The position numbers were made by a program, and so were the translations under genes. A stretch of 48,227 nt of DNA, from the NCBI GenBank assembly GCA_024401535.1, contig JAKSKX010000018.1, positions 1 through 48,227 of the forward strand. The letters run 5' to 3'. The notes under the pieces are model-generated. The model did not search any database. It was not told the origin of the DNA and worked only from the letters and a program-made list of their open reading frames with translations. Of the stretch, positions 20,118-39,614 are shown piece by piece. This stretch comes from Paludibacteraceae bacterium. Its GTDB lineage: Bacteria > Bacteroidota > Bacteroidia > Bacteroidales > Paludibacteraceae. Every line of letters begins with the position of its first letter. Position 1 is the first letter of the stretch.

Positions 20118-20239
20118 CAAAGTTACTGATGGTGAAAAAAGTGGGAAATCCCTTTGATAAGCGTTTCGTATCACTATTATATGTGATAAGAACTACATAT
20201 AAGTGTTATTGCCAATATTTTGCATTGGAAATAACTTTG
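20118..20239. promoter_or_regulatory. Bidirectional sulfur-regulon control region with one central palindrome
   Basis: The palindrome ATCACTATTATATGTGAT (20170-20187) is the centre. Leftwards (minus): 17 bp, GGGATTTC (20145-20152), 19 bp, TAACTTTG (20118-20125), driving pstC-pstA-cysK-trxB. Rightwards (plus): exactly the same 44 bp to TAACTTTG (20232-20239), driving the GT2-pstB-metY genes. At the place of GGGATTTC the plus strand has GTTATTGC (20205-20212, 5 of 8 identical), a weaker copy. One bound regulator could switch both transporter halves together. Confidence 0.85.
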
Positions 20240-20266
20240 CATCGAATTTTAACAAAAGGAATTGAC

Positions 20267-20884
20267 ATGATAAGCGTAATTGTAACATTAAAAAACAAAG
20301 AGAACACGATTATCTCTGCACTGCAGTCAATAGTGGCGCAGTCGGTTCAGAAGTGGGAAGCCGTTATTGTTGACAACGGTTCGACCGATGGAAGCGAATA
20401 TCAAGTGCGTTCGTACCTTATAGATAGGAGAATGAGATATTTAAAACTCGAAAAAGAGGTTTCTGTAGCCGAGGCAAGACAAAAAGGGCTGGAAATGACT
20501 TCCGGCGAGTGGGTTCTGTTTATGGACGGAAGTGATTACCTTGAAGTCAATGCTTTGGAAGCTCTCTATCTCAGCGTCAAAAAATATGGAACTTCTATCG
20601 CAGTTGGAAATTTTTCATTTATAAAAAGAGGAGAAAAGCAGATTCAGAATTTTATTCCGGAAGGCATAATTTCTGCCTCTCAGTTTAATAAAACAAGGCT
20701 TTTGATGGCTACTGGAACAACTTTGATGGGTCGCTCTGTTGCAACTAGACCTGAACTTTGGGAAACGTCTAACGTTGCCTATACAGACCATCTTGTGGTG
20801 ATTAACGGGGAGGGCGAACAACCGCTAATCAAGCCTCGTAGGGCTAGTTTATTCAGTCGTCTGTTCTCTTGGTTTAATAATTAA
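20267..20884 (+). CDS. Small GT2-like glycosyltransferase domain protein
   Basis: A 205-residue protein starting at ATG 20267 (MISVIVTLKN), 27 bp past the -7 box. It looks like the N-terminal GT-A core: VIVDNGSTDGS (about 33-43) binds the nucleotide. The metal-binding DxD site is altered to FMDGSD (about 85-90), and the usual C-terminal half is missing. It may be an inactive or repurposed GT2 fold. It is the first gene of the plus-strand sulfur unit, 12 bp before the pstB-like gene. Nothing in known sulfate assimilation explains it. Confidence 0.75.
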   Translation: MISVIVTLKNKENTIISALQSIVAQSVQKWEAVIVDNGSTDGSEYQVRSYLIDRRMRYLKLEKEVSVAEARQKGLEMTSGEWVLFMDGSDYLEVNALEALYLSVKKYGTSIAVGNFSFIKRGEKQIQNFIPEGIISASQFNKTRLLMATGTTLMGRSVATRPELWETSNVAYTDHLVVINGEGEQPLIKPRRASLFSRLFSWFNN

Positions 20885-20896
20885 AAAGTATTTGTT

Positions 20897-21724
20897 ATGA
20901 GCAGTTTTTTTCATAGAGCAGAAGCAAACGGGCAGTTTGACCCTACAAAAAAGTTTGAAATACTTGAGCATAATGGAATAGAGGTAAGCAACCTTAACGT
21001 CCACATCGGCAGCGCACATATTCTCAAAAATGTCAATGTAACAATACCAAAGAACAAGATTACCTGTATAATCGGTCCTTCGGGTTGTGGAAAGAGTACT
21101 TTGCTTCGTACTTTCAACCGCATAATCGACACTACCGAAGGCGTGAAAATAGAGGGCGACATTTTCCTTGGAACTCGTAACATCGTTAAGAGTCATGGCG
21201 CAGACCTCATTGAGCTGCGCAGACATATAGGTCTTGTGCCTCAGCGTCCTTGTCCATTGCCTATGTCAATCTTTGACAACATAGCTTACGGCTGTCGTAT
21301 TCATGGAATAAGCGGTAAAGAGAAGTTGAATGCTGTGGTTGAACATTACTTGAAAAGCATTGGTCTTTGGGACGAGGTTAAGGAGCGTCTGTCTTCACCT
21401 GCCGCTCGACTTTCCGGAGGTCAGCAACAGCGTCTGTGCCTTGCACGTTCGCTTGCAGTAGAACCTTCAGTTCTTTTGGCTGACGAGAGCACTTCGGCGC
21501 TTGACCCAATTTCATCAAAGAAAGTCGAACAGCTGTTGGTCGAACTGAAGCAGAACTACACAATCGTAATGGTTACGCACACACTTCAGCAGGCACAGCG
21601 AATTGCCGACAATGTCATTTTCATGTATCTTGGCGAGGTTGTCGAGCAGGGGCCTGCCAAAGAAATTTTCAATAATCCGCAGAATGAACTGACTCGCCGC
21701 TATTTGGATGGTGCTTTCAGTTAA
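20897..21724 (+). CDS. PstB-like ABC transporter ATPase (inferred sulfate uptake)
   Basis: A 275-residue ATPase with Walker A GPSGCGKST (about 60-68), Q-loop VPQRP, signature LSGGQQQR, Walker B VLLADEST and switch His (MVTHTLQQA). It belongs to the PstB type. It is separated from its permeases: they are transcribed to the left and this gene to the right, from one shared operator. The metY-like gene follows after 22 bp. Its link to sulfate is inferred from this arrangement. Confidence 0.9.
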   Translation: MSSFFHRAEANGQFDPTKKFEILEHNGIEVSNLNVHIGSAHILKNVNVTIPKNKITCIIGPSGCGKSTLLRTFNRIIDTTEGVKIEGDIFLGTRNIVKSHGADLIELRRHIGLVPQRPCPLPMSIFDNIAYGCRIHGISGKEKLNAVVEHYLKSIGLWDEVKERLSSPAARLSGGQQQRLCLARSLAVEPSVLLADESTSALDPISSKKVEQLLVELKQNYTIVMVTHTLQQAQRIADNVIFMYLGEVVEQGPAKEIFNNPQNELTRRYLDGAFS

Positions 21725-21746
21725 TAATAAGTAAAGTATAGTAAAG

Positions 21747-22955
21747 ATGGAATATACAGATCAACATTTAGATGAACTTCAGTGCGCAACTCTTGCGACT
21801 CTGACCAATTATCAGAAGCCTGACGCCTATGGTGCGTTGAGCATGCCTGTCTATCATTGTGCAAGCTACGAGTTTGCCACAGCCAAGGAGATGAGCGACG
21901 TTTTTTGCGGCAGAGTTCTTGACCCCGAGTATTCGCGCGTCATGAATCCGACCGTTACATTTTTCGAGAATCGTGTGAAGCTGCTTACCGGTGCGGCGAA
22001 TGTGTTTGCCTTTAACTGCGGCATGGCAGCCATCAGCAATGTGCTTTTTGCCCTTGCTTCACAGGGAAAAAATATCGTGACTTCAAGCCATCTGTTCGGA
22101 AACACAGTATCGTTCCTTAGAAACACTCTCGGCAATTTGGGTGTAGAGACAAGAGAAATAAACCTGCTTGACCGTGAGGCTGTAGAGAATGCCGTTGATG
22201 AAAACACGTGTGCCGTGTTCCTTGAAATCATAACAAATCCGCAGATGGAGGTTGCTGACCTTTCTATGCTGGCAGAGGTTGCGCATGCCAAGAATGTTCC
22301 ATTGGTTGCAGACACGACGCTCATTCCCTTCACGCAGTTTGACGGCAAGGCCTTGGGCATAGATGCCCAGGTAGTAAGCTCGACAAAGTACATTTCGGGC
22401 GGAGCGACTAGCCTTGGTGGTCTTGTCATCGACTACGGCACATTCCCAGTCATTAACCGCAGGATTCGCTACGAACTTCTGTTCAACTTGGGCGGCTACA
22501 TGACTCCGCACGCAGCGTATATGCAGACTGTGGGTTTGGAGACTCTTGAAGCACGCTACAAGGTTCATGCCTCGAACGCCCTTGAACTGGCGAAGCGCCT
22601 GCAAAATGTTCCCGAAATTAAGAGGGTGAACTACACTGGACTTCCCGACAACCCTTTTCACGAGATTGCGAGGAAGCAGTTCGGAGAAACTTCTGGTGCC
22701 ATGCTGACGATAGACCTCGAGGACAAGGCTTCGGCGTTGAATTTCATCAATAATTTGAAGGTGGTGCATAGGGCGAGCAATCTGTTCGACAACCGTTCTC
22801 TTGCCATTCATCCTGCTTCCACTATCTTTGGCCCTTTCTCCGGTTCGCAGCGTAGGGCGATGGACGTGCTTGACACTACAATCAGACTGTCAATAGGTTT
22901 GGAAAATATTGACGACATTTTTAATGACATTGTGCAGGCAGTCAGGGCTAAGTAG
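21747..22955 (+). CDS. metY: Cys/Met-metabolism PLP enzyme, probable O-acetylhomoserine sulfhydrylase
   Basis: A 402-residue enzyme with the PLP lysine in SSTKYISGGATSLGG (Lys214), YSRVMNPT, and a conserved C-terminal RLSIGLENIDDI. The family includes MetY, cystathionine gamma-synthase and gamma-lyase. MetY is favoured because the gene is co-regulated with sulfate reduction, and a carrier-protein/JAMM set like the homocysteine system of Wolinella is present in the island. It would make homocysteine from O-acetylhomoserine and sulfide. It is slightly shorter than most MetY proteins, so a gamma-synthase or lyase role is not excluded. It is last in the plus-strand unit. Confidence 0.75.
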   Translation: MEYTDQHLDELQCATLATLTNYQKPDAYGALSMPVYHCASYEFATAKEMSDVFCGRVLDPEYSRVMNPTVTFFENRVKLLTGAANVFAFNCGMAAISNVLFALASQGKNIVTSSHLFGNTVSFLRNTLGNLGVETREINLLDREAVENAVDENTCAVFLEIITNPQMEVADLSMLAEVAHAKNVPLVADTTLIPFTQFDGKALGIDAQVVSSTKYISGGATSLGGLVIDYGTFPVINRRIRYELLFNLGGYMTPHAAYMQTVGLETLEARYKVHASNALELAKRLQNVPEIKRVNYTGLPDNPFHEIARKQFGETSGAMLTIDLEDKASALNFINNLKVVHRASNLFDNRSLAIHPASTIFGPFSGSQRRAMDVLDTTIRLSIGLENIDDIFNDIVQAVRAK

Positions 22956-24019: not shown

Positions 24020-24532
24020 TTAAACTATAACGGGGAAACGAGTAACCTCCCCGTTCACTATTCGGAAGGCATTAATGACCGGCTGTCCAGCTGGCACATT
24101 AGGGCTTCCTGATAAGCCAGGAGAAAGAGAACAGATTAGATAGAGAGTGTTCGGGTCTAAAGCCAATCTCTTGTCTTCTTCAGAAGGGCGACTTGGCGAA
24201 GCCGGATGACTATGCCAGTTGCCGATGACCTTGAGCGCATTCTGTCGGGCATACTTTAATGCCGCGAACTGTTCCTTTGGCGCCATAGAGAAATGTTCCT
24301 CTGAATTGTCAATGTTTGTAAGAGGGTAGTTGTGCGTGATAAGAATCTCGCCATTCTCGTCAACCTCTCCCAAAGCATAACCGCAACTCTCTATTGGTGC
24401 GTCTTTTTGAGCTTGTGAAATGATTGATGAATAGGCTTCCTTGGTTATATGAATAACTTTGCCCGATTCTTTCCAACCATATAGGCTTGCTGGCGCATCT
24501 TCAATTTTTATATCTTGTTCTGCTTCTGTCAT
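24020..24532 (-). CDS. JAMM/MPN zinc peptidase of the sulfur-carrier system (HcyD/QbsD/Mec+-like)
   Basis: A 170-residue protein with a complete JAMM zinc site: Glu48 (PIESCGY), His107 and His109 (NWHSHP), Ser117 and Asp120 (SRPSEED). Bacterial relatives next to ThiS-like carriers either trim the carrier C-terminus to expose Gly-Gly (QbsD, HcyD) or release the amino acid formed on the carrier (Mec+ with CysO). The carrier here ends GGG-Gln-Phe, so trimming is a clear need. The gene is 3 bp after moeB and ends the operon. Product release is a second possible role. Confidence 0.88.
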   Translation of the reverse strand: MTEAEQDIKIEDAPASLYGWKESGKVIHITKEAYSSIISQAQKDAPIESCGYALGEVDENGEILITHNYPLTNIDNSEEHFSMAPKEQFAALKYARQNALKVIGNWHSHPASPSRPSEEDKRLALDPNTLYLICSLSPGLSGSPNVPAGQPVINAFRIVNGEVTRFPVIV

Positions 24533-24535
24533 TTC

Positions 24536-25345
24536 TTAATGTTTTTTTAAGTCACAAGTTGCCTGCTCATAGTCGATTAGCTCAGTAAGTGTAGGGTTGT
24601 CTCCACATAGCTTGCAACGGTGGTTGTGACGAATGTTAGTCTTGCGGAAATCCATAGTCTTGGCGTTGAAAGTCAGAAGTTTGTCTGTCAACAGCTCTCC
24701 CACTCCAGTGATGTATTTCAGCGTTTCGGCAGCCTGAATTGTGCCCAACATTCCTGCAATCGCTCCCAATACACCTGCCTGAGAACAAGTAGGCACTGCG
24801 TTAGGAGGAGGTGGTGTGCCGAACACACAGCGGTAGCATGCCGAACCCGGAACGTGTGTGAAGGTTTGTCCCTCGAAGCGAAGAATTCCACCGTGGCTGA
24901 ACGGTTTGCCAGCCATTACACAAGTGTCGTTAATCAGGAACTTTACCGGGAAATTGTCAGTTCCGTCTATTATGAAATCGTAGTCCTTGATAATGTCAAG
25001 CGCATTGTTTGCCATCAAAAGGTCTTGAATGGCATTTACCTTGACATTTGGATTTATTGCAAGCATCTTTTCCTTTGCAGAGATGACTTTTGGCACGTCC
25101 ACGTCCTTAGTGAAGTGAATTACCTGACGCTGAAGGTTTGAAAGGTCAACAACGTCACCGTCAATGATTCCGATAGTGCCTACACCGGCAGCTGCTAGGT
25201 AAAGAGCTACGGGTGCGCCAAGTCCACCGGCACCAACCACAAGGACTTTGGCCTCCTTTATTTTTTCTTGTCCCTCTACACCGACATCCTGAAGCAGAAT
25301 GTGACGGCTGTATCTGACAAGTTCTTCTTCTGAAAAATCAAACAT
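24536..25345 (-). CDS. MoeB/ThiF-type carrier-activating enzyme
   Basis: A 269-residue adenylyltransferase with RYSRH (11-15), the ATP site GAGGLGAP (38-45), DLSNLQRQ (67-74), two zinc-binding CxxC pairs (Cys170/173, Cys244/247) and a conserved Cys187 (PTCSQAGVLG). It adenylates the C-terminal glycine of a ThiS/MoaD-like protein so that sulfur can replace AMP. No rhodanese domain is fused. With the carrier 41 bp upstream, the JAMM peptidase downstream and no thiamine or molybdopterin genes around, its role here is inferred to be cysteine or homocysteine sulfur transfer. Confidence 0.9.
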   Translation of the reverse strand: MFDFSEEELVRYSRHILLQDVGVEGQEKIKEAKVLVVGAGGLGAPVALYLAAAGVGTIGIIDGDVVDLSNLQRQVIHFTKDVDVPKVISAKEKMLAINPNVKVNAIQDLLMANNALDIIKDYDFIIDGTDNFPVKFLINDTCVMAGKPFSHGGILRFEGQTFTHVPGSACYRCVFGTPPPPNAVPTCSQAGVLGAIAGMLGTIQAAETLKYITGVGELLTDKLLTFNAKTMDFRKTNIRHNHRCKLCGDNPTLTELIDYEQATCDLKKH

Positions 25346-25348
25346 AAC

Positions 25349-25385
25349 AATAATTATGAATTATGCATTATACATTATGAATTGA
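25349..25385. repeat. AT-rich intergenic repeat unit
   Basis: Copies of ATTATGAATTATGCATTA and CATTATGAATTG fill the gap between the carrier and moeB genes. The same sequence type occurs at 8411-8632 and 38373-38400. Confidence 0.55.
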
Positions 25386-25386
25386 A

Positions 25387-25599
25387 TTAGAACTGGCCGC
25401 CACCCATGAAGTAAAGGAAGTCAACCGAGTCGCCTTCGTTAATTTGAAGTGTGTCGAAATCCTCTCGCTCGACAAACTCCTCGTTAATTTGAATGCTCAC
25501 CATCTCAGGCTGGAACACCTTGTTTGCCTTGATAAGTTCAGAAAGAGTCAAAGGTAGCTGAACTTCCTGCTCTTCGCCGTTTACTATGATTTTTGCCAT
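25387..25599 (-). CDS. ThiS/MoaD-like sulfur-carrier protein with masked C-terminus
   Basis: A 70-residue beta-grasp protein (MAKIIVNGEEQEVQ, ending FLYFMGGGQF). ThiS and MoaD end at Gly-Gly. Here two residues, Gln69 and Phe70, follow the glycines (66-68), so the protein cannot be adenylated until they are removed. The same design is known for QbsE (two extra residues) and HcyS, which are trimmed by JAMM peptidases. The activating enzyme and a JAMM peptidase are in the same operon. Inferred job: carry sulfide as a C-terminal thiocarboxylate to MetY-like or CysK enzymes. Confidence 0.88.
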   Translation of the reverse strand: MAKIIVNGEEQEVQLPLTLSELIKANKVFQPEMVSIQINEEFVEREDFDTLQINEGDSVDFLYFMGGGQF

Positions 25600-25617
25600 G
25601 TCTTTTTCGTTTTTGGG

Positions 25618-25935
25618 TTATAGATATTTGTCGATAGTTGAAGCAATCTTTAGCTTGTTCACAGCACCAGTAAGCTTGTCAACCACTTCTCCGTTCTTGA
25701 TGAAAAGAATTGTAGGAATGCTCTGAACTCCATATTTTTCTGTCAGAGCCTCGTTGTTTTCTGCGTTGCACTTGCCTACAACGGCTTTGCCTTCGTATTC
25801 CTCTGCAACCTGGGCAATGATTGGGGCAAGCCTCTGGCAAGGTCCGCACCATGTAGCCCAAAAGTCAATCACAACCAACTTGTCAGTGGAAGTTACCTCT
25901 GCGTGGTTGTCTTCTGTAATCTTTAATTCTGCCAT
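25618..25935 (-). CDS. trxA: Thioredoxin
   Basis: A 105-residue protein with the active site WCGPC (Cys30, Cys33), typical length and fold. It reduces disulfides and is the usual electron donor of APS/PAPS reductase. It is the first gene of the trxA-carrier-moeB-JAMM operon under a sulfur-regulon promoter (25980-26049), so it is probably the dedicated donor for CysH, recharged by the TrxB of 16354-17316. Confidence 0.95.
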   Translation of the reverse strand: MAELKITEDNHAEVTSTDKLVVIDFWATWCGPCQRLAPIIAQVAEEYEGKAVVGKCNAENNEALTEKYGVQSIPTILFIKNGEVVDKLTGAVNKLKIASTIDKYL

Positions 25936-25979: not shown

Positions 25980-26049
25980 CAAAATTAGTTGGTTTCCACT
26001 GCGTGGGAAATACCTTTCAGTTGGTAATTGCATCACTAATGTATGTGAT
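25980..26049 (-). promoter_or_regulatory. Sulfur-regulon promoter of the trxA operon
   Basis: Minus strand: palindrome at 26032-26049 (plus-strand reading ATCACTAATGTATGTGAT, identical to the porin site), 17 bp, GGTATTTC (26007-26014), 19 bp, TAATTTTG (25980-25987). The palindrome starts right after the hemL stop codon. Confidence 0.88.
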
Positions 26050-26050: not shown

Positions 26051-27325
26051 TTACCCGTTGAAACTTTTTGCAACTTCCAGAACTTTAGTGAGTTGTGCCT
26101 TTGTGTGCGCAGTAGAAATGAAGTTACCCTCGAACTGAGAAGGCGAGAAATATATGCCGTTTGCGAGCATGTGCCTCCAGAATCGTGCGAATCGTTCAGT
26201 GTCACTACTTTTCGCATCGTCGAAGTCTTTAGGCGACTTCCCTTCCGTAAAGAAAGGTGTGAACATGTTTTCGACTCTGTTAACAGCAATTCCCTTGTTT
26301 GAAAGGATATCTGAAAGTTCGTCGATAAACCATTTAGCCTTGGCGTTTAGCTCGTCATAGACTTTCGGCTGAGAAAGCACTTCAAGCGTTGCAAGTCCTG
26401 CGGTCATGGCTACTGGGTTTCCCGAGAGAGTTCCAGCCTGATAGACCGGACCTATCGGTGCAAGCATCTGCATGATTTCCCTTCTGCCACCGAAAGCGGC
26501 TGCGGGGAAGCCTCCGCCTACAATCTTTCCCACTGCTGTCAAGTCAGGAGTTATGCCGTAGTATTTTTGTGCGCCACCTAAAGTCAAGCGGAAGCCCGTA
26601 ATCACCTCGTCAAAAATAAGAAGCGAACCGTTTTTCCTTGTAATTTCCCTAATGAACTGCAGGAAGCCGTCTCTTTGTGGCACAACACCCATGTTTGCAG
26701 GAACTGGCTCGACAATAACTGCGGCAATTTCGCCCTTGTGTTTGTCAAATACTTCCTTTAGCTTTTCTTTGTCGTTGAACGGCACTACGAGTGTGTATTT
26801 TACAAAGTCTCGAGGCACGCCGGCTGAACTGCCTATTCCGCAAGTTGCTACACCAGAGCCTGCACTTACGAGCAGATGGTCGGCATGACCGTGGTAACAG
26901 CCGTCGAACTTCACAATATAGTCACGATTAGTGAAGCCTCTGGCAAGTCTGATTGCTGACATTGTTGCCTCTGTTCCAGAGTTCACGAAACGAACCTGTT
27001 CCATTGACGGAATGAGTTCCGACACACGTCTTGCCAAGTCAGTTTCAAGTGTTGTTGGAATTCCGTAGCTTGTTCCGTTTTTCACTGCGTCAATCACAGC
27101 CGACTGAACTTGAGGGTTAGAATGTCCTGCAATGAACACACCCCAAGAGAGGCAGAAGTCAATGAACTTGTTTCCGTCAATATCAGTGAGTTCTGCACCA
27201 TCGGCAGATTTAATAAATAGTGGTGTTTCTCCGACTGAGCGCAAAGCCCTCACGGGGCTGTTTACTCCGCCCGGAATATATTTTTGAGCCTCTGTAAAGG
27301 CTTGTTTGCTTTTTTGCCTGTTCAT
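26051..27325 (-). CDS. hemL: Glutamate-1-semialdehyde 2,1-aminomutase
   Basis: A 424-residue PLP enzyme starting at ATG 27323-27325 (MNRQKSKQAF). PLP lysine Lys267 lies in GKIVGGGFPAAAFGG; FDEVITGFR (about 238-246) is the cofactor Asp region; YHGHAD is present. It turns glutamate-1-semialdehyde into 5-aminolevulinate. It follows hemA by 16 bp, so they form one operon from the promoter at 28236-28306. Confidence 0.95.
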   Translation of the reverse strand: MNRQKSKQAFTEAQKYIPGGVNSPVRALRSVGETPLFIKSADGAELTDIDGNKFIDFCLSWGVFIAGHSNPQVQSAVIDAVKNGTSYGIPTTLETDLARRVSELIPSMEQVRFVNSGTEATMSAIRLARGFTNRDYIVKFDGCYHGHADHLLVSAGSGVATCGIGSSAGVPRDFVKYTLVVPFNDKEKLKEVFDKHKGEIAAVIVEPVPANMGVVPQRDGFLQFIREITRKNGSLLIFDEVITGFRLTLGGAQKYYGITPDLTAVGKIVGGGFPAAAFGGRREIMQMLAPIGPVYQAGTLSGNPVAMTAGLATLEVLSQPKVYDELNAKAKWFIDELSDILSNKGIAVNRVENMFTPFFTEGKSPKDFDDAKSSDTERFARFWRHMLANGIYFSPSQFEGNFISTAHTKAQLTKVLEVAKSFNG

Positions 27326-27341
27326 AATCTTGATTTTTTGG

Positions 27342-28202
27342 TTAAGCTGGTCTTTTGCTGTACTCTTGCCAGTGAACAAGTTTTTCGATTTCCTGCTCTA
27401 TTATTTCTTCGCACTTGCCTATTTCATCCTCTCTTTTTTTCAAATTTTGTTGTGCGAGTGCTTCTATTTCCCCTAGTTTATAAAGTCTTTTGTTTGGACT
27501 TTGTGCAACATTACTTTCAATGTCGTCTGGGTTTGCAAGGTCAATGAGCAGTTGATTTTTTTCTGCTGGCAAATCGTCTCTGCCGATGATTGTGTGCGGT
27601 GCAGAGGTTGCGCTTATCACGACATCAGAGAGAGAAAGAAGTTTCTGCTTTTCGCTTAATGGCAGAGCCACTGCGTTATATTTATCAGCTAATACCTCAG
27701 CTTTTTCAATACTTCGGTTGGCAAGAATGATGTTCGCTGAACCTCTTGCAGTCAGGAAGCCCAAAATCGATTCGGTAAGTTCGTTCACACCGATGATGCT
27801 GACAACTTTTGAAGAAAGGTCGGTCAATTCCTTGCATAGAATGTCAACAGTGACTTGAGAGTATGACACAGCTCCGCGTGCGATGGCTGTCTCTGTACGT
27901 GTACGATGGCCTACGCAAATTGCAGTCTGAAATAGTTTGTTGATTGACGAAGACAGACGGCCTGTTTCCCTTGCTTCGATATATGACTTTTTAATTTGGC
28001 CGAGTATCGCACCTTCGCCTAAAAGCGGAGATTCAAGCCCTGCAGCCACACGAAACAAATGTCTGGCGGTTTGTACCGGAATTTCTCCTTCGCCCCAATA
28101 GAGCTCTGTTCGTGCGCAGGTCTTTATAAGTACGCCGTCTGACCTTTTGGCAACGAGTACAGGTGACTCGCTCCTGTTATTTACAATAATCGAATGTACC
28201 AT
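27342..28202 (-). CDS. hemA: Short glutamyl-tRNA reductase
   Basis: A 286-residue protein starting at ATG 28200-28202 (MVHSIIVNN). It has the catalytic cysteine Cys29 in TCARTELY, SPLLGEGAILGQIK and GVGHRTRTET-like sequence (ICVGHRTRTETAI), an altered dinucleotide site, and the long spinal helix at the end. Ordinary enzymes have about 415 residues. This one lacks about 20 N-terminal residues and the whole C-terminal dimerisation domain. The catalytic core remains, so it may be active as a reduced form. It is the first gene of the hemA-hemL unit. Confidence 0.85.
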   Translation of the reverse strand: MVHSIIVNNRSESPVLVAKRSDGVLIKTCARTELYWGEGEIPVQTARHLFRVAAGLESPLLGEGAILGQIKKSYIEARETGRLSSSINKLFQTAICVGHRTRTETAIARGAVSYSQVTVDILCKELTDLSSKVVSIIGVNELTESILGFLTARGSANIILANRSIEKAEVLADKYNAVALPLSEKQKLLSLSDVVISATSAPHTIIGRDDLPAEKNQLLIDLANPDDIESNVAQSPNKRLYKLGEIEALAQQNLKKREDEIGKCEEIIEQEIEKLVHWQEYSKRPA

Positions 28203-28235
28203 TTCGCAACTTAGTTTAATTCTTATTTCCAAGTG

Positions 28236-31693: not shown

Positions 31694-31772
31694 CAAAATT
31701 AGTTGTTGTTGAGCGCCCGTGAAATCCCATAAAAATACCACCTATATCACATAAGTTTGTGATATAGGTGGT
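31694..31772 (-). promoter_or_regulatory. Sulfur-regulon promoter of the hemC-hemB-met8 operon
   Basis: Minus strand: palindrome at 31746-31763 (plus reading ATCACATAAGTTTGTGAT), 17 bp, GGGATTTC (31721-31728), 19 bp, TAATTTTG (31694-31701). The palindrome is the core of a longer perfect inverted repeat, 31737-31772, with 15-bp arms and a 6-bp centre. Confidence 0.88.
31731..31772 (-). terminator. Terminator of the cysD-cysN-cysH-sir operon overlapping the hemC operator
   Basis: The 15-bp-arm inverted repeat at 31737-31772 lies 26 bp past the sulfite-reductase stop. On the minus strand it is followed by ATTTTTAT, so the RNA can form a terminator-like hairpin. The T-run is short, so termination may be partial. 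Confidence 0.6.
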
Positions 31773-31797: not shown

Positions 31798-34200
31798 CTA
31801 TTTCTTCTTTATAATTACTTGCCAATAGCCGTCGGTATGCTGTGTTTGTGACAGAATCTCGTGACCTTCAAGCTTAACAGAGCCTGGCACATTTTCGATT
31901 GGCTTGCCGTCATCTAGCAGAATTTCAAGAATATCTCCCGATTTAAGTGTTGCAAGTTCAATCTTTGTGCGAACAAAGTTCATAGGACATAGCACACCTC
32001 TTAAATCCTTGCTTTTTGTTATTTCAATATTTGAAGAAGGGTTTTCTTTGTGAGACTCGGCCTTAGTTTCAATTTTTGCTTGAACTTCGTTGTTTTTTCC
32101 CTCTGCAAGATTCTCTGCAGAAATTTTCTTGAACTGCAAACTGTCGTCCATTCCGGCGTAAAGGGAATTTACTGAAGCGGCAAGTGCATCGGCTTGATTT
32201 TGGTTGTATTCTCCGTTTTCCCCCTCTGTCTTTGCCTTTTCCACCAAAGGTAGAAAGTCTTTTGAAACAAGCTCAGTTTCGATAAACTCCTTGATGAACG
32301 CATCGAACACTTCCGAAGGCTGCTGTGGGTCGAGACCTCTTGTAACCAAAAGCATTCTCGAAGCGTGGAAGATAACTTCGTATAGGCCCTTGCCCTCCTT
32401 CGCATATTTAGTCTGGGCTTCCTTGATTGCCTCCTGGTCAACGGTAATCATGTCGAACAAGCCTGCGGAACACTCTGGTTTTCCTCGTTTTTCTACATTA
32501 AAGACATCATTACTTCCCCAGTCAAAGTAATAGTTCTTGTCAACTGCGAACAAAGGAACTTCAGAGTATTTTTCCACTAGCGAAATAGCGATTTTGTGGC
32601 CTGCTTTGCTTCTTAACCACTTGTTGAAAGTAAGAGGAGAATCTGGAAGAATTGACTCGCTTCGCATCGTCGATATAAACATTGAATTTGCAATTTGACT
32701 CACTTTCGTATCGTCGATTTCCAATTCTGCAGCTTCGATAAATTTAGAAATAAGTGCAACAGCAAAATCTGGAACTTTGTAAGCAGCTATTGTACCTATG
32801 CTCTCAGCCAAAGCCGGAGAGTCAGTATAGTTGGCTGCAACAAACACCTGGTAGGCAGGGTAGGCGTGGTCTGTGTGCAGAACCTTTCCCACAAAACCAA
32901 GGTCAGTCCAAAGAGGCTGACCGCACAAGTTCGGACAGCCGGTAATGTTTATGCGTGCATCGTCCAAATATGAAAGGTCAAGTGCGCTGTTCTCAAGTCG
33001 TGAATAGATTGCGTCGGCAAGTCCTTTTGAAAGACAGATTCCAAGGCGGCAAGTGTCTGCACCCGTACAAGAAACAATATTATTCAGAACTGCCGGCTTG
33101 TCGTAGTCGGAAGTGTAGTTTCTAATTAGTTCCTCAAGTTCAGCCAACTTTTCCGAAGGAATGTTTCTGAGGCGGATATTCTGTCTTGTTGTGAAGCGAA
33201 CAGTATGCTTGCTTATCTTTGCTACAAAGTTAAGCACTGCCTTTAGCTGCTCGACTTTCTCGTCATTGTCAAGCGAGATATTTCCCCATACAAAAGGAAT
33301 GACTACAGTACGGTCATTGTCAGAGCTGTGAGGAAAGTCTCCGAGCTTCACATCAAGTTTTTTGCCTGTAGCTTTCTCCTTTTCAAAGAACTCGTCGATA
33401 AGTTTGAAAGTTTCCTCCTCGCCATTCTTATAGAAAATATATCTTATTCGAGCCTGATGCTTGTTCTTGCGATTGCCATGAGTGTTAAAGAAGGTCTTCA
33501 TAGCCTTTATAAGTGCGTAGAGGTCTTCAGCAGGGATGAACTCTTTGTAAAGCCAGCCCACAGTAGGCTTTGAACCGGCGCCACCACCGATATAGACCTT
33601 GAAGCCACGCTTGCCGTCCTTAATTTTGGCAACAAAACCAATGTCGTTTATTCCAGCGTAGTCCTCGAATTTTTCGTCACTCGAGAATGCAATCTTCATT
33701 TTTCGAGGCATTAGGAATGAGTCTGCCTCTGGCACAAGCACGTCTGTCACTGCCATAGCATATGGCGTAGTGTCGAAAGTCTCTGTCTGCGAAATGCCGG
33801 AGAATTCGCTTACAAGAATGTTTCGCAGAGTGTTTCCTCCACCTCCTTTTGTCGCAAGACCTGCGGCTTCGAGTTCACTAAGCACGCTTTCGACTTCATC
33901 AAGTTCAAGGTTAAGAATCTGAATTTCAGCACGTGTTGTGATGTGAAGCAGGTTAGAGCCGTGACGTTTTGCAATGTCTATTACCTGCAGCAACTGGTTT
34001 GGGGTAATGACTCCGCCAGTAGCACGAATTCGCGCCATATAGACCTCATTCTTTCGCTGTTCGTACACACCCATAGGCACACGAAAAGCTTTGAACTCAA
34101 CACCGTTTACTGTTCCTCCCTGATAGCCTTGAGCTAACTTGCCGAACTTGCTGATGTCGGCAGTTAAAGTCTCTGGTAATTTATATGTTGTATCGCTCAT
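31798..34200 (-). CDS. Siroheme sulfite reductase fused to HEPN-like and TusA-like domains
   Basis: An 800-residue protein. Residues 1 to about 490 are a NirA/CysI-type reductase with two ferredoxin-like halves. The siroheme-4Fe4S cysteines are Cys378, Cys384 (SCTGADTCRLG) and Cys422, Cys426 (TGCPNLCG). About 530-660 looks like the HEPN-type helical domain fused to sulfite reductases in Bacteroidota (my recollection of the family; pattern GKGLYEVIFHASRMLLVTRG). A charged linker leads to a TusA-like domain (about 730-800) with the sulfur-carrying Cys738 in LRGVLCPMN. It makes sulfide from sulfite; the TusA domain suggests the product is handed over as a persulfide. It is 14 bp after cysH and last in its operon. 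Confidence 0.9.
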   Translation of the reverse strand: MSDTTYKLPETLTADISKFGKLAQGYQGGTVNGVEFKAFRVPMGVYEQRKNEVYMARIRATGGVITPNQLLQVIDIAKRHGSNLLHITTRAEIQILNLELDEVESVLSELEAAGLATKGGGGNTLRNILVSEFSGISQTETFDTTPYAMAVTDVLVPEADSFLMPRKMKIAFSSDEKFEDYAGINDIGFVAKIKDGKRGFKVYIGGGAGSKPTVGWLYKEFIPAEDLYALIKAMKTFFNTHGNRKNKHQARIRYIFYKNGEEETFKLIDEFFEKEKATGKKLDVKLGDFPHSSDNDRTVVIPFVWGNISLDNDEKVEQLKAVLNFVAKISKHTVRFTTRQNIRLRNIPSEKLAELEELIRNYTSDYDKPAVLNNIVSCTGADTCRLGICLSKGLADAIYSRLENSALDLSYLDDARINITGCPNLCGQPLWTDLGFVGKVLHTDHAYPAYQVFVAANYTDSPALAESIGTIAAYKVPDFAVALISKFIEAAELEIDDTKVSQIANSMFISTMRSESILPDSPLTFNKWLRSKAGHKIAISLVEKYSEVPLFAVDKNYYFDWGSNDVFNVEKRGKPECSAGLFDMITVDQEAIKEAQTKYAKEGKGLYEVIFHASRMLLVTRGLDPQQPSEVFDAFIKEFIETELVSKDFLPLVEKAKTEGENGEYNQNQADALAASVNSLYAGMDDSLQFKKISAENLAEGKNNEVQAKIETKAESHKENPSSNIEITKSKDLRGVLCPMNFVRTKIELATLKSGDILEILLDDGKPIENVPGSVKLEGHEILSQTQHTDGYWQVIIKKK

Positions 34201-34214
34201 TTGTAAATCTTGTT

Positions 34215-34946
34215 TTATCGTTTATGAAGTCCGCATTCCTTGTGTTCCGGGTCTTCCCACCACCATCTTCCGGCACGAATATCCTCGCCCGGCTCGACAG
34301 CTCTTGTACAAGGCTGACAGCCGATTGAAGGGAATCCCTGGTCGTGAAGCTTGTTGTATGGCACACGATTTGCCTTGATGTAGCTCCATACATCTTCCTC
34401 AGTCCATTTTACAAGAGGGTTTACCTTGATAAGCCTGTTGTTTTCATCCCACTCCACAACTTGTGTGTTTGTTCGAGTAACAGCCTGCGAGGCACGAAGC
34501 CCGCAAATCCATACATCAAGGGTGGACAAGGCCCTTAGAAGTGGCTCTATCTTGCGGCAATGGCAACATCCTTTTCTTAGTTCCACACTTTGGTAGAAGG
34601 CGTTTATGCCGTTGTCTCTAACATACTTCTCTACGCCGTTATGGTCTGGTGAATAGACTTCGATTTTGATGTCGTACTTGTCGTTTGTACGGTCAATCAG
34701 CTGGTATGATTCAGGAAACAGTCTGCCGGTGTCGATGGTAAAGACTCTGCCTTTGCCGGGTTGCTTTGCAATCATGTCGGTAAGCACCTGGTCTTCTAGT
34801 CCAAGACTTGACGCAAGGGCAATTCTGTTTCCGTATTGGGGAAGGAAGTAGGCCAGAACTTCTTCTGGTTTGGCTTCCTTGAATCTTTCGTTAAGTTCCT
34901 TTACGAGTTGCCTCGCTTTCGTTTCGTCAATTTTCAATTCTTTCAT
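34215..34946 (-). CDS. cysH: Adenylyl-sulfate (APS) reductase, iron-sulfur type
   Basis: A 243-residue protein with the substrate loop ASSLGLEDQ (about 45-53) and the catalytic KECGLH (Cys238). The cysteine pairs Cys127-Cys128 (GCCHC) and Cys210/Cys213 (GCQPC) are the 4Fe-4S ligands that mark APS reductases and are absent from PAPS reductases. It reduces APS to sulfite and AMP using thioredoxin. The lack of an APS kinase, either separate or fused to CysN, supports use of APS directly. It lies between cysN and sir in one operon. Confidence 0.95.
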   Translation of the reverse strand: MKELKIDETKARQLVKELNERFKEAKPEEVLAYFLPQYGNRIALASSLGLEDQVLTDMIAKQPGKGRVFTIDTGRLFPESYQLIDRTNDKYDIKIEVYSPDHNGVEKYVRDNGINAFYQSVELRKGCCHCRKIEPLLRALSTLDVWICGLRASQAVTRTNTQVVEWDENNRLIKVNPLVKWTEEDVWSYIKANRVPYNKLHDQGFPSIGCQPCTRAVEPGEDIRAGRWWWEDPEHKECGLHKR

Positions 34947-34948
34947 AG

Positions 34949-34982
34949 AGTTGTTAACTATTAATTATTAATTCATTAACTA
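34949..34982. repeat. AT-rich spacer repeat between cysN and cysH
   Basis: Repeated TTAACTATTAATTATTAATT units, continuing into the end of cysN. A similar TTAATTGTTAAC sequence occurs between cysD and cysN (36300-36330). Confidence 0.5.
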
Positions 34983-36278
34983 TTAATTGTTAACTATCAT
35001 ACCTGCACCTACAGTCTCGTTTGTTCCCTCGTCAACGAATACAAGTGAACCGGTAGTGCGGTTGTTTTCGTAAAGGTCGTACGCTAAAGGCTTTGAGACT
35101 TTTAGTGTTACCTTTGCAATGTCGTTCATGTTTATGGTCTTGTCATCGACGATGTTTTCGAGTGTGTTGATGTTGACCTTGTAGTCTATTGCAGTCACAA
35201 AACCTTGAAATTCATCAGTTGTATGCCTGATGATGTACTTTTGTCTTAACTGCAGAGGACGATGGTTAAGCCAGCATACAAGAAGCTCGACCTGTTGTCC
35301 GACATAAGGAACCTCGCTGCTCTTGACAATCTGAGAGCCACGGCTGACATCAACGTCGTCTGCAAGAGAAATGCTCACACTCTGTGGAGCTTGAGCCTCG
35401 TCGAGCTGTACTGTTCCCTCGTCAATTCGTGAGACTACAGACTCTGTATATGAAGGAAGAACTGTCACCTTGTCGCCAACCTTGATTGTGCCGCTTGCAA
35501 TACGTCCGGCGTATGCCCTATAGTCCGGCCATTCGGCTGTCTGCGGGCGCACAACATACTGGACAGGAAAGCGGAATGGCTGTGCCTCGATGCCCTGCTT
35601 CAAAGGAACTTGCTCGAGAAGGTGAAGAAGAGTCTCGCCCTTGTACCAAGGTGTATTTCCCGAAGCATTGACCACATTATCGCCCTTGAGTGCTGAAATT
35701 GGAATGAAATATACATTCTTGAGGTTCAAAAGTTCCGCAACTTTTGCATATTCCTGCTTGATTTTGTTGTAAACATCCTCAGAGAAGTCAACCAAATCCA
35801 TCTTGTTGATGGCTACGATTACATAGTCTATCTTTAGAAGCGAGGCGATGTAAGAGTGGCGTTTTGTCTGCTCGATAATACCGTTTCTAGCGTCAACAAG
35901 TATGATTGCCGCGTCTGCTGTCGAAGCTCCGGTAACCATGTTTCTTGTGTATTCGATATGCCCCGGAGTGTCGGCAATGATAAATTTGCGCTTTGGAGTA
36001 GCAAAATATCTGTAGGCCACGTCTATGGTAATGCCTTGTTCACGCTCTGCACGTAGTCCGTCAGTAAGTAGTGCAAGGTTTATTTCGGCATTGCCCAAGC
36101 GTTCGGAAGCGGCTTCCACAGCCTCAAGCTGGTCTTCGAATATAGACTTGGAGTCATATAGAAGTCTGCCGATTAGTGTTGACTTTCCGTCATCTACGCT
36201 TCCTGCGGTTGTGAAGCGAAGTAGCTCCATGTCCAGGTAGCCGTTTCCGCTCTGTATGTTTTGTGTTGTATTGCTCAT
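34983..36278 (-). CDS. cysN: Sulfate adenylyltransferase GTPase subunit
   Basis: A 431-residue EF-Tu-like GTPase. P-loop GSVDDGKS (26-33), DTPGHIEY (103-110) and NKMD (158-161) are intact, followed by two beta-barrel domains. It drives APS formation by CysD with GTP hydrolysis. It ends after the barrels: there is no fused APS-kinase (CysC) domain. It lies 56 bp after cysD and 36 bp before cysH. Confidence 0.97.
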   Translation of the reverse strand: MSNTTQNIQSGNGYLDMELLRFTTAGSVDDGKSTLIGRLLYDSKSIFEDQLEAVEAASERLGNAEINLALLTDGLRAEREQGITIDVAYRYFATPKRKFIIADTPGHIEYTRNMVTGASTADAAIILVDARNGIIEQTKRHSYIASLLKIDYVIVAINKMDLVDFSEDVYNKIKQEYAKVAELLNLKNVYFIPISALKGDNVVNASGNTPWYKGETLLHLLEQVPLKQGIEAQPFRFPVQYVVRPQTAEWPDYRAYAGRIASGTIKVGDKVTVLPSYTESVVSRIDEGTVQLDEAQAPQSVSISLADDVDVSRGSQIVKSSEVPYVGQQVELLVCWLNHRPLQLRQKYIIRHTTDEFQGFVTAIDYKVNINTLENIVDDKTINMNDIAKVTLKVSKPLAYDLYENNRTTGSLVFVDEGTNETVGAGMIVNN

Positions 36279-36334
36279 AATTTAATTCCTTATTTTGTCA
36301 GTTAATTGTTAACTCTTAATTATCAACTCATAAT

Positions 36335-37237
36335 TTAGAAGTAGCCTGCCTTCTTCCTGTCTTCCATAGCTGCTTCCGAGCGCTTGTCATCGGCTCTTCC
36401 TCCTCTTTCGGTAACACGTGACGAAGCAATCTCGTCAATGATGTCTTCGATAGTGTCTGCTGTCGAAAGAGTCAGACCGGTACATGTAATGTCTCCGATA
36501 GTGCGGCAGCGAACACGTTTCTTCTCAATCTTTTCATTTGGTTTCAACTGCATGAAAGGGTAGTGCGCCAACCAAACGCCGTCTCTCTCGAACACCTCGC
36601 GCTCGTGAGTGTAGTAGAGCGATGGAAGCGGAATGTTCTCCTGCAGAATATACTGCCAGACATCCATCTCGGTCCAGTTAGATATTGGGAATACACGGAA
36701 ATGTTCGCCAATATTCTTCTTTCCGTTAAAGATGTTCCAAAGTTCAGGTCTCTGGTTCTTTGGGTCCCATTGGCCGAACTCGTCACGATGGCTGAAGAAA
36801 CGCTCTTTTGCGCGAGCTTTCTCCTCGTCTCGTCTTGCACCGCCAAGGGCAGCATCGAACTTGTACTTTTCGAGGGTGTCAAGCAGTGTTACAGTCTGCA
36901 GTTTGTTGCGTGATGCATTGTAGCCTTTCTCTTCTACAGCTCTTCCCTCGTCAATGCTCTGCTGTACAGAACCGACTATAAGCTTGACGTTCAAACGCTT
37001 TACTAGTTCGTCGCGAAACTCTATTGTCTCTATGAAATTATGTCCAGTGTCGATGTGAAGGAAAGGGAATGGTATTGGCGAAGGGTAAAAAGCCTTGTAT
37101 GCCAAGTGTGCAAGCACGATGCTGTCCTTACCTCCCGAGAACAGAAGCACTGGTTTCTCGAACTGAGCTGCAACCTCGCGTATGACGTAGATTGCCTCAG
37201 ACTCTAATTCTTTCAGATGTGTAATTTTCTGTGACAT
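36335..37237 (-). CDS. cysD: Sulfate adenylyltransferase catalytic subunit
   Basis: A 300-residue PP-loop enzyme with LLFSGGKDS (SGGKDS at 34-39), GGARRDEEKARAKERFFSHR and WDPKNQRPELWN, all diagnostic of CysD. It activates sulfate with ATP to form APS. It is the first gene of cysD-cysN-cysH-sir, about 68 nt downstream of the start site inferred from the promoter at 37312-37381. Confidence 0.97.
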   Translation of the reverse strand: MSQKITHLKELESEAIYVIREVAAQFEKPVLLFSGGKDSIVLAHLAYKAFYPSPIPFPFLHIDTGHNFIETIEFRDELVKRLNVKLIVGSVQQSIDEGRAVEEKGYNASRNKLQTVTLLDTLEKYKFDAALGGARRDEEKARAKERFFSHRDEFGQWDPKNQRPELWNIFNGKKNIGEHFRVFPISNWTEMDVWQYILQENIPLPSLYYTHEREVFERDGVWLAHYPFMQLKPNEKIEKKRVRCRTIGDITCTGLTLSTADTIEDIIDEIASSRVTERGGRADDKRSEAAMEDRKKAGYF

Positions 37238-37311: not shown

Positions 37312-37381
37312 CAAAATTACTGCGGTTTGCCAAGGTTGGAAATCGCAGTAATACGCCATTTATATCACATATATTAGTGAG
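37312..37381 (-). promoter_or_regulatory. Sulfur-regulon promoter of the cysD operon, overlapping the end of the binding-protein gene
   Basis: Minus strand: palindrome at 37364-37381 (plus reading ATCACATATATTAGTGAG, last base off), 17 bp, GCGATTTC (37339-37346), 19 bp, TAATTTTG (37312-37319). The right half of the palindrome contains the last codons and stop of the upstream gene. No terminator separates the two, so read-through is possible. Confidence 0.85.
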
Positions 37382-38372
37382 AAGAATCTAACTTCAACAG
37401 AGCAGCGTCAATCTTGTCCTGAGAAATTGAAACATAGCCTACGCCATCGTTAACTTGCTGTCCTTCAGTCAATACATATTTAAGGAAAGCCACTACGACA
37501 GGATTTGTAGGTACGCCGTTGGAAACAAGGTACAAATCGCGAGCAGGTGGAGAAGGGAACTTTCCGTCAGCAATAGCCTTTGTCAACGAGTCCTTGGAAG
37601 CATAGAAGTCTTCTTCTGGGTCAATCTGTCCGTTTTCGTTCACGTCAATAGGCAGAACTCTGATTCCTGGCAGTGGTTCCTTGGTGTTGTTGTCATAGAC
37701 ATAGCCGATGTTGTTCAAGCCAAGCGAGTTGACATTCTTCTGCACTGCATTTGCTACACCTGGGTCACCGTAAACACCATCACCGCCCAAGTCCTCCTGA
37801 TGCTTGCCAAACCATTTTGCGAAAGTCTCGGCGGCACCACAAGCGTCACTACGTGTAAATACTGAAATAGTTGTTGTTTCGCTGTTTCCGACAAACTCTC
37901 CCCAAGTCTTGATTGAGCCGTCAATCCATATCTTCTTTGCCTGCTCGGCAGTAATTCCACGCTTGACTATTTCCGCATATAGAGGGTTTTTCTCGTTTAT
38001 AGTAGGCACAACCGCATCCTTGGCTACAGGGAAACCGACAGCACCCTTCTGGATTTCTGCCTCACTAACCTCACGGCTGACCATTCCGAAATCTACTTGG
38101 CCGGACAATGCGTCAGTCATTCCCTTGCCTGCGCCACCGCCTTCCACTTCAATCCTTACGTTTGGGTGAAGTTTCTGGAAATCCTCTGCCCATTTAACTG
38201 CAAGAGGGTAAAGAGCGAAAGCACCTGAAAGAGAGATTCTTCCCGAAAGTTCCTCTCCGTTGTTTGCTGTCTCTTGGCTGTTGCCTTTGCTATTTCCTCC
38301 GCAAGAAGTTGCGAATATTGATGCTGCAAATAGAAATGCAGCTGCTGATCCTTTAAAAATACTGTTTCTCAT
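37374..38372 (-). CDS. PstS-like substrate-binding lipoprotein (inferred sulfate binding)
   Basis: A 332-residue lipoprotein starting at ATG 38370-38372; an alternative ATG lies 12 bp earlier. Lipobox FATSC (Cys24). The body is a PstS-type binding protein: ISLSGAFALYPLAVKW, GGGAGKGMTDALSGQVDFGMVSR, FTRSDACGAAETFAKW. In phosphate PstS the matching loops bind the tetrahedral oxyanion, and sulfate has the same shape. Neighbouring cysD and a sulfur-regulon promoter shared with the porin upstream support sulfate. It would deliver it to the PstC/A/B-like transporter at 18.3-21.7 kb. Confidence 0.88.
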   Translation of the reverse strand: MRNSIFKGSAAAFLFAASIFATSCGGNSKGNSQETANNGEELSGRISLSGAFALYPLAVKWAEDFQKLHPNVRIEVEGGGAGKGMTDALSGQVDFGMVSREVSEAEIQKGAVGFPVAKDAVVPTINEKNPLYAEIVKRGITAEQAKKIWIDGSIKTWGEFVGNSETTTISVFTRSDACGAAETFAKWFGKHQEDLGGDGVYGDPGVANAVQKNVNSLGLNNIGYVYDNNTKEPLPGIRVLPIDVNENGQIDPEEDFYASKDSLTKAIADGKFPSPPARDLYLVSNGVPTNPVVVAFLKYVLTEGQQVNDGVGYVSISQDKIDAALLKLDSSH

Positions 38373-38400
38373 ATAATTATGCATTAATAATTATGAATTG
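38373..38400. repeat. AT-rich intergenic repeat unit
   Basis: TAATTATGCATTAATAATTATGAATTG, of the same type as at 25349-25385, fills the gap between porin and binding-protein genes. Confidence 0.5.
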
Positions 38401-38401
38401 A

Positions 38402-39454
38402 TTAAAATGTTGCTATTAGTTGTGCCTCAATCAAATTTCCTGATGGCTTGCCGCTGTTTGCATACTCTGTATAAGTGTAGTTCAGCTGTCCGCGAACATA
38501 CTTGATTGGCTGCCAGTTTATGCCGACAGTAAAGTCATGCTGAATGTCTGTGTTGACGGAAGTGTCTTTCTGATAGAAGCCGTAGCTCAAAACTGGCTGA
38601 ATGCCGTGCTTGAACTTGTATGCCGCAGTAACGAAAGCTCCCTGCTGGTCTGTATCTCCCGTTTGTCCGTACAAATACTCGGAGCGAACGAACACATTGT
38701 CGTTCTTGTATGTAAGGCCTGCAGAAGTTCTGTTTCTCTTGATTGCATTGTCATTGACGTGGGCTCCGGCCTTGATTGAGTCAGCTTCAACAGCCTTAGG
38801 TGTGAAGTGACCGATGTATTGGCCTGCACTCAAAGTAAGGTGCTTGACTGGATTTAAAGTTATGAATGCAGCCAAGTTCTTGTATTCGTCATTGTCTTTC
38901 AAGTTGATTCCGTTACCGTTGTAAACTCCGACCTTGTAGCCGAATACGTGATAGTCCTCTTTCTTGCCGACGTTACCGTAAATTCTAATACCTACGTCGC
39001 GAGAGTTTGATGATAGACCGCTGATGTCGTTGTAGCCTGTCAGCTTGTTGATGACTGTCGGATTTTCGATAGTCAGCCATGTTGCTGGGCCGTCCTGTGA
39101 CTCTTGTGAGTATTCAGTCTTGAACTCTCCGACCTGAACATTAAAGGCATCTACCGGTTTGAATCGCACATACACGTCAATAATCTTTACCGAAGTTTCA
39201 TATTCCGCCTGCAGTTTATAGTCGATTGTCTTTCCAAAGTTACCGGTTGCGGCAAGTCTTACTCGTCTCAGGTCGAAACTGTTTGGTTTTGCGGCATCGT
39301 CATTATACGAGTAGCGCGCATTTATCAAACCTGAAACTTTTGGAACTGAAGGAGTATAATCCTTCTTTGGTTTCTTCTCATCTTGCGCATTTGCTATTCC
39401 AGAAGAAAGTAGCAGCGCTGTACTTAAACAGATTAGTTGTTGTTTTGCATTCAT
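38402..39454 (-). CDS. OprO/OprP-type outer-membrane porin (inferred sulfate entry)
   Basis: A 350-residue beta-barrel protein starting at ATG 39452-39454 (MNAKQQLICLSTALLLSSGIANA signal peptide). SGLINARYSY, FDLRRVRLAATGNFGK, FNVQVGEFKTEYSQE and the C-terminal Phe (LIATF) match the Porin_O_P family, known for anion-selective (phosphate) pores. Alternating hydrophobic strands run to the end. It is first in a unit with the PstS-like gene (29-bp gap) under the sulfur-regulon promoter 39545-39614, so it is inferred to admit sulfate. Confidence 0.88.
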   Translation of the reverse strand: MNAKQQLICLSTALLLSSGIANAQDEKKPKKDYTPSVPKVSGLINARYSYNDDAAKPNSFDLRRVRLAATGNFGKTIDYKLQAEYETSVKIIDVYVRFKPVDAFNVQVGEFKTEYSQESQDGPATWLTIENPTVINKLTGYNDISGLSSNSRDVGIRIYGNVGKKEDYHVFGYKVGVYNGNGINLKDNDEYKNLAAFITLNPVKHLTLSAGQYIGHFTPKAVEADSIKAGAHVNDNAIKRNRTSAGLTYKNDNVFVRSEYLYGQTGDTDQQGAFVTAAYKFKHGIQPVLSYGFYQKDTSVNTDIQHDFTVGINWQPIKYVRGQLNYTYTEYANSGKPSGNLIEAQLIATF

Positions 39455-39544
39455 GTCAGTTAACTTTTTAATTGTTTTAATGTTAGACAAATAATTGAGG
39501 AACTGAAAAATTGTTTTTTGTCGTTTTGTTCCCTTTTCTGAGTG

Positions 39545-39614
39545 CAAAATTATTGTGATTCCACCACGTGAGAAATCCCAGAGGAAAGTCAATTTTATCA
39601 CTAATGTATGTGAT
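39545..39614 (-). promoter_or_regulatory. Sulfur-regulon promoter of the porin/binding-protein unit
   Basis: Minus strand: palindrome at 39597-39614 (plus reading ATCACTAATGTATGTGAT), 17 bp, GGGATTTC (39572-39579), 19 bp, TAATTTTG (39545-39552). The leader is about 85 nt. Confidence 0.9.

Follow-up and report, generated by a model that had tools for sequence, protein, structure and literature searches.

The window analysed here is the whole of a 48,227-nucleotide contig (C10; GenBank JAKSKX010000018.1) of a Paludibacteraceae bacterium, the genome of which consists of 2.96 Mb in 69 contigs. At about 16.3-39.6 kb of the window lies a sulfur island, and we describe a spaced promoter pattern shared by its putative operons and the LuxR-type protein that may read it. 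The island carries the genes for a porin, a PstS-like protein, cysD, cysN, cysH, sulfite reductase, a hemC-cobA-hemD fusion, hemB and the cysG N-terminal domain; those for hemA, hemL, trxA, moeB, a desampylase-like (JAMM-type) protein and the LuxR-type regulator; and those for pstC, pstA, cysK, a pyridine-nucleotide oxidoreductase, a GT2 protein, pstB and a Cys/Met pyridoxal-phosphate (PLP) enzyme. Domains were scanned in 39 distinct open reading frames (ORFs) out of 63 listed (at least 100 aa), many of the remainder being antisense or overlapping. The haem-type genes of the island would fit siroheme synthesis serving sulfite reductase.

The original prediction held that seven promoters of this island follow one rigid code, and the pattern was indeed found at all seven. 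All the coordinates check. The exact form, ATCAC-N8-GTGAT, 17 bp, G[GC][GT]ATTTC, 19 bp and TAAnTTTG, is present at the pstC, trxA, hemC and porin promoters, and the cysD promoter is one base off the full spaced pattern. The variant palindrome with longer spacing claimed for hemA was located as the dyad TACCAAACATTTGGTA at 28290-28305, with its -7 box one base farther off, and the plus-strand GT2 promoter, also expected to fit, carries the full pattern with 2 mismatches. The seven promoters rest on six palindromes, as the one at 20170-20187 is common to pstC and GT2.

The pattern was then compared with chance expectation. At up to 3 mismatches, the full spaced pattern gave 6 matches in the whole 2.96-Mb genome, all 6 inside the window and within the island, and the reversed control gave 0; the scan for equal frequency at unrelated genes, proposed as a way to refute the regulon, thus turned up no such genes in this genome. 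For the window itself, none of 100 dinucleotide shuffles produced a single match, compared with these 6, in agreement with the claim that the spacing is under selection. Exact palindromes number 5 genome-wide, 4 of them inside the window (binomial P = 3.5e-7); in the sequence inspected, the remaining one (C60:4066) lacks TAnnTTTG at the expected distance. Once one mismatch is allowed, the palindrome alone carries less weight, with 6 in the window, a shuffle mean of 1.19 and 1 of 100 shuffles reaching 6. The combination of middle box and -7 box, GNATTTC-N19-TAANTTTG, is rare (5 genome-wide, 4 of them in the window) and is therefore no general promoter box of this genome. The shared promoter pattern is real, and in its full form it is confined to the sulfur island of this genome.

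The middle element had been taken for an independent promoter box, and this part of the single code did not hold. G[GC][GT]ATTTC belongs, as proximal half, to another and weaker dyad (O2), the centre of which lies 22 bp, or two helical turns, below that of the first (O1). Three groups of sites, from the window's clade, from Bacteroides-like genomes and from genus g2, were aligned on the O1 centre; they were admitted by O1 and the -7 box being 53 bp apart, so that this distance is by selection there. The dyad core T..C........G..A recurred at shift +22 with a mean match of 0.94, 0.97 and 0.92 (non-redundant sites: 26, 24 and 23). Averaged over shifts, the match was 0.23-0.25, and the next best shifts gave 0.63, 0.44 and 0.45; in no group did any of 500 shuffles attain the peak. 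For the left half of O2 the scores were 0.88, 0.96 and 0.85. A reading of the middle element as a -33 promoter box was rejected on the strength of this recurrence. In three relatives' loci (L030, L031 and L044), divergent promoters overlap such that O1 of one strand is O2 of the other. At the scan settings used, 15 of 29 cysD loci carried the operator, and both dyads were flagged in 8 of the 15.

Each promoter consists of two tandem dyads, near -64 and -42 when the -7 box centre is set as -7, before a standard Bacteroidota -7 box. The palindrome had been placed at about -65, at a site of class I activators or of LysR-type proteins; the dyad near -64 does occupy the class I place, but the likely binder is a LuxR/NarL protein. 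The operator had not been recognised from known CysB, CymR or CRP sites, but it has the NarL-type layout of inverted heptamers 2 bp apart (7-2-7), of which the hemA "variant" is the plain form, with TACCA-N6-TGGTA at hemA and TACC-N8-GGTA in relatives. A strict switch of operator form between clades was ruled out, both forms being present in the window (hemA versus the rest), L038 and L044.

The same operators were found in relatives. The full pattern occurs in 6 of 300 family genomes, own genome included, with 24 sites and controls of 0; each of the 18 sites in the five other genomes precedes an ortholog of trxA, cysD, hemC, hemA, porin or sir. The proposal that these genes form a sulfur regulon is supported. 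Genus g2 shows two plain copies of TACC-N8-GGTA as its dyads, and a two-dyad scan of nine g2 genomes gave 41 matches, a few of which are one site read twice, against 2 for the reversed control. Among 30 g2 loci fetched, the next ORF was a homolog of a window-island protein in 15 (14 distinct sites), namely cysD in 7, cysK in 3, pstS in 2, pstC in 1 and porin in 1 (seen twice). Further two-dyad copies precede luxR in G143, G211 and G001. Other g2 sites precede a ThiS-family protein, DUF2061, DUF4395 and Ser_hydrolase proteins, an ECF sigma factor, outer-membrane-receptor-like ORFs and short leader ORFs; no ORF was called after the main site of L207.

In Bacteroides-like loci, the TACCA-N6-TGGTA dyad lies 53 bp before the -7 box in 40 of 51, the distance not being preselected, and apart from 53 bp and 26 bp no distance occurred in more than 5 loci. 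These 53-bp dyads mostly precede metY, mnmA or cysK, names checked by NCBIfam on one example each (L054, L053 and L066), and the regulator ortholog is encoded near these promoters. Of 14 loci of the Tannerella/Rikenella/Alistipes type, 13 have the dyad between luxR and cysK, where it reads both ways. Its distance from each -7 box is 30-32 bp there (31 for both boxes in 7 loci), shorter than 53 by about 22 bp. In other genera it stands before metY-like, cysK-like or luxR ORFs (L176, L177, L178, L179, L224 and L045, by eye), and it was not found in 19 of the 30 loci of that scan, most of which were picked for earlier failures. With the TACCA form and spacing, eight whole genomes from other loci gave 11 matches in 7 of the 8, controls being 0; the matches precede metY, mnmA, cysK, uroporphyrinogen-III C-methyltransferase (L134), a second luxR copy (L133, by eye) and others. 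The two-dyad arrangement is conserved across genera and linked to the regulator gene.

The best candidate for the binder of the dyads, and the most likely one, is the LuxR/NarL-type protein encoded within the island at 23037-23702. Its GerE (LuxR-type) helix-turn-helix domain (E = 2.1e-17) is present in 29 of 29 aligned relatives, and it is the only transcription factor among the window ORFs scanned. Close orthologs adjoin island genes in L030-L032, L036-L039, L043 and L044. In a class-wide sample of 295 genomes, 4 (own included), all of the same order, score above 250 bits, and the remaining matches, below 140 bits, resemble generic response regulators. Response_reg was detected at E<=0.1 in 10 of the 29 aligned relatives and not in the window protein. 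D10, D60, S88 and K111 of the receiver pocket are invariant in the 29 aligned; D10 is followed by N, K, P or R in all 31 aligned rows, never by an acidic residue, so that the usual second acidic residue is missing. No sensor kinase was found among the 39 window ORFs scanned, the rest of the genome not being searched. Because of this missing residue and the lack of a kinase among those ORFs, the regulator may receive its signal from a ligand, from acetyl phosphate or from an unlinked kinase.

We consider it highly probable, from the sequence comparisons above, that the seven promoters form one sulfur regulon, controlled through paired operators by the island NarL-type protein acting as activator. 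In the proposed mechanism, sulfur shortage would lead two regulator dimers to bind side by side on one DNA face, one at the strong distal O1 near -64 and one at the weaker proximal O2 near -42, 22 bp below (23 at hemA) and abutting the -33 region. A normal Bacteroidota -7 box TAnnTTTG follows at a fixed distance after O2, and the bound dimers would recruit RNA polymerase to promoters with a weak -33 match. Binding by this protein, activation and the response to sulfur supply are predictions of this scheme.

Several known systems come close to the scheme. NarL of E. coli also has a GerE-type DNA-binding domain and recognises inverted heptamers 2 bp apart, TACC-N8-GGTA, as in the engineered 7-2-7 site TACCCCTAAAGGGGTA (PMC4549865). 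The present system differs in having sulfur rather than nitrate genes as targets, two dimer sites at a fixed 22-bp spacing, no sensor kinase among the window ORFs scanned and a non-acidic residue after the first receiver aspartate. BvgA of Bordetella binds as dimers 22 bp apart on one face, with a strong distal site and a weaker proximal site that abuts -35 (PMC7250471). The predicted site centres here are likewise 22 bp apart with the proximal site abutting -33, but there are two sites rather than three to six, the promoter is of Bacteroidota type, and sequence and targets are different. The -7 box TAnnTTTG is that of sigma-ABfr, the primary Bacteroides sigma factor (PMC7366714). Promoters of the island share this box, but -33 TTTG is poorly matched (by eye), O2 being in its place. 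CysB of Proteobacteria belongs to the LysR family and CymR of Firmicutes to the Rrf2 family, both unrelated to NarL-type proteins; they plausibly do the same physiological job, and their operators differ from the dyads here.

In support of the scheme, the regulator (E<=1e-30) was found in 24 of 29 cysD-bearing genomes versus 55 of 271 others (Fisher P = 2.6e-11), a test that ignores shared ancestry. Several observations weigh against the scheme. At that threshold no regulator was found in G173 (97% complete) and G205 despite two-dyad cysD promoters (L146 and L147), a diverged copy, for which no search was made, being possible. G080 also has sites and no regulator match; its contig stops just past mov34, where luxR follows in relatives. 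Genus g2 carries a 35%-identity paralog of the regulator, which makes the acting copy there ambiguous. In the window, an operator of luxR itself was not recognisable in the two-dyad scan, for which reason autoregulation was rejected, and the loose scan flagged a single poor match beyond the island (-7 box at 43861, O2 2/4). No operator was found at 14 of the 29 cysD loci at the settings used, some cysD perhaps not being first in the operon. With up to 1 mismatch allowed, both spacings were missing from 11 of the 51 Bacteroides-like loci and from 7 of the 15 near ones; in 6 of those 7 luxR is the sole island gene, save for a 27% cysN match in L041. In 28 of 51 Bacteroides-like loci (L046-L092), a TAnnTTTG-like box lies 26 bp from the dyad on the divergent strand before lipoprotein-like ORFs. 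Some matches precede genes not obviously related to sulfur, among them an ECF sigma factor and, by eye, ORFs resembling SusC (B. fragilis) and a permease (KHT7).

The same protein on the same paired operators might instead be a repressor that shuts the promoters under an ample supply of cysteine or sulfide. In favour of this, O2 borders on the -33 region, and NarL is a repressor at some promoters (PMC4549865). We nevertheless regard repression as rather unlikely, since O1 at about -64 and strictly kept distances to the -7 box (53 or 31 bp, which differ by 22) make an activator layout and neither site covers the -7 box. It is unlikely that the dyads are bound by some other regulator from elsewhere in the genome (LysR/CysB-like, Crp/Fnr-like or Rrf2/CymR-like), luxR being a mere neighbour. 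G173 and G205, with operators and no detected regulator, would suit such a protein; so would the class I placement, which fits Crp or LysR proteins too. Against it stand the 7-2-7 form of the dyad, as in NarL, and its position: in another lineage 13 of 14 loci have it between luxR and cysK, and it is found elsewhere ahead of luxR copies. Nor was a second transcription-factor domain found in those 39 of the 63 listed window ORFs that were scanned. Crp and Rrf2 proteins were looked for in window ORFs only; no Crp/Fnr protein was found among the 39 scanned, the genome not being searched. As for LysR, no protein linked to the sites was found among these ORFs, and a single LysR protein of the genome passes the Pfam cut-off, encoded on another contig (C5). 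LysR proteins recognise T-N11-A, and this reading of the palindrome was rejected in view of the even dyad centre together with the lack of a linked LysR gene. LysR or CRP control of the dyads is less likely than control by the NarL-type protein. That the middle element is a special -33 box for an alternative sigma factor, the palindrome being a separate operator, is very improbable: it does lie 19 bp from TAnnTTTG, at roughly the -33 place, but it becomes GGTA, the letters of the O1 right half, in genus g2, equals half of the opposite strand's O1 in L030, L031 and L044, has a matching left half and stands before an ordinary primary-sigma -7 box.

We know of no described sulfur regulator for Bacteroidales, and none of this kind was found among the papers listed in open-access literature searches, subscription papers mostly lying outside them. 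The word LuxR is absent from the main text, as available, of a B. thetaiotaomicron regulatory network (PMC12596196), and the accessible portion of another paper does not show such a regulon (PMC9026213). We conclude that the regulon is real, that its proposed regulator and operator were not found described, and that it is a variant of NarL-type control and not a new kind of promoter. A wider and more tentative proposal is that throughout Bacteroidales, including human-gut Bacteroides, an orphan NarL-type protein might replace CysB/CymR as master sulfur regulator. It might sense a sulfur metabolite directly through an altered receiver domain without a kinase and act through paired dimers at -64/-42 or, in the region separating its gene from cysK, through one dimer at -42, with polycysteine leader peptides adding a translational check in one genus. 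Bacteroides and Prevotella are major bacteria of the gut, an environment in which the use of cysteine and the release of sulfide can have effects on the host. The analysis yields a named candidate gene, an exact operator and the predicted targets metY, mnmA and cysK in culturable Bacteroides. Coordinates of all features are collected in Table 1.

Table 1. Putative operons, promoter elements and proposed regulator of the sulfur island (positions in the window)
Feature	Position	Strand	Remark
Putative target operon: pstC, pstA, cysK, pyridine-nucleotide oxidoreductase	16354..20055	-	by adjacency
Putative target operon: GT2, pstB, Cys/Met-metabolism PLP enzyme	20267..22955	+	
Putative target operon: trxA, ThiS-like ORF, moeB/thiF, desampylase-like (JAMM-type) protein	24020..25935	-	ThiS-like ORF by eye
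Putative target operon: hemA, hemL	26051..28232	-	
Putative target operon: hemC-cobA-hemD fusion, hemB, cysG N-terminal domain	28314..31661	-	
Putative target operon: cysD, cysN, cysH, sulfite reductase	31798..37237	-	
Putative target operon: porin, PstS-like binding protein	37374..39490	-	
Proposed regulator, LuxR/NarL-type, 221 aa	23037..23702	-	GerE DNA-binding domain after receiver-like domain
O1, porin-pstS promoter	39597..39614	-	exact ATCAC-N8-GTGAT
O2, porin promoter	39576..39591	-	weaker dyad, 22 bp below O1; core 4/4
-7 box TAATTTTG, porin promoter	39545..39552	-	
O1, cysD promoter	37364..37381	-	one base off
O2, cysD promoter	37343..37358	-	core 4/4
-7 box TAATTTTG, cysD promoter	37312..37319	-	
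O1, hemC-cobA-hemD promoter	31746..31763	-	
O2, hemC promoter	31725..31740	-	core 3/4
-7 box TAATTTTG, hemC promoter	31694..31701	-	
O1, hemA promoter	28290..28305	-	TACCA-N6-TGGTA form
O2, hemA promoter	28267..28282	-	core 3/4 by eye; 23 bp below O1, so missed by scan set for 22
-7 box TAATTTTG, hemA promoter	28236..28243	-	54 bp from O1 centre
O1, trxA promoter	26032..26049	-	
O2, trxA promoter	26011..26026	-	independently found as TACCA-N6-TGGTA with one mismatch
-7 box TAATTTTG, trxA promoter	25980..25987	-	
O1, common to divergent pstC (-) and GT2-pstB (+) promoters	20170..20187		
O2, pstC promoter	20149..20164	-	core 3/4
-7 box TAACTTTG, pstC promoter	20118..20125	-	
O2, GT2-pstB promoter	20193..20208	+	core 3/4
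-7 box TAACTTTG, GT2-pstB promoter	20232..20239	+	

A lone exact TACCA-N6-TGGTA dyad was also observed at 39845-39860, with a -7 box at neither usual distance. A Pst-type transporter (PstSCAB-like) and a porin (18306-21724 and 37374-38384 taken together) are located within the sulfur regulon both in the window and in genus g2, and because of this location we suggest that the transporter carries sulfate rather than phosphate. The two-dyad operator is in this way an aid to annotation, assigning Pst-type transporters, the porin and unknown genes to sulfur uptake. The trxA, ThiS-like, moeB and JAMM-type genes (24020-25935) stand under a single operator, and the g2 counterpart of the ThiS-like ORF matches ThiS. 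This group suggests a sulfur-carrier route to cysteine, like that of CysO/Mec in mycobacteria.

Among the g2 loci, the operator is followed in L193, L194, L187, L205, L192 and L209 by a DUF2061, DUF4395 or Ser_hydrolase protein (L194 and L209 by similarity of the start). In L213 (G001; 3221-4024), the two-dyad operator precedes an ECF sigma factor and then a 1203-aa outer-membrane-receptor-like ORF. Small ORFs ending in Met-Cys runs were observed after the operator in L201 (1612-1788, STRMCCCCMPC), L211 (1492, minus strand, MRMCCCSVAC) and L191 (1647-1820, STRMGCCM). Among the papers listed in a literature search, none dealt with polycysteine leaders in Bacteroidetes. The Met-Cys ORFs precede PstS-like or outer-membrane-receptor-like genes and may be cysteine-sensing leader peptides.

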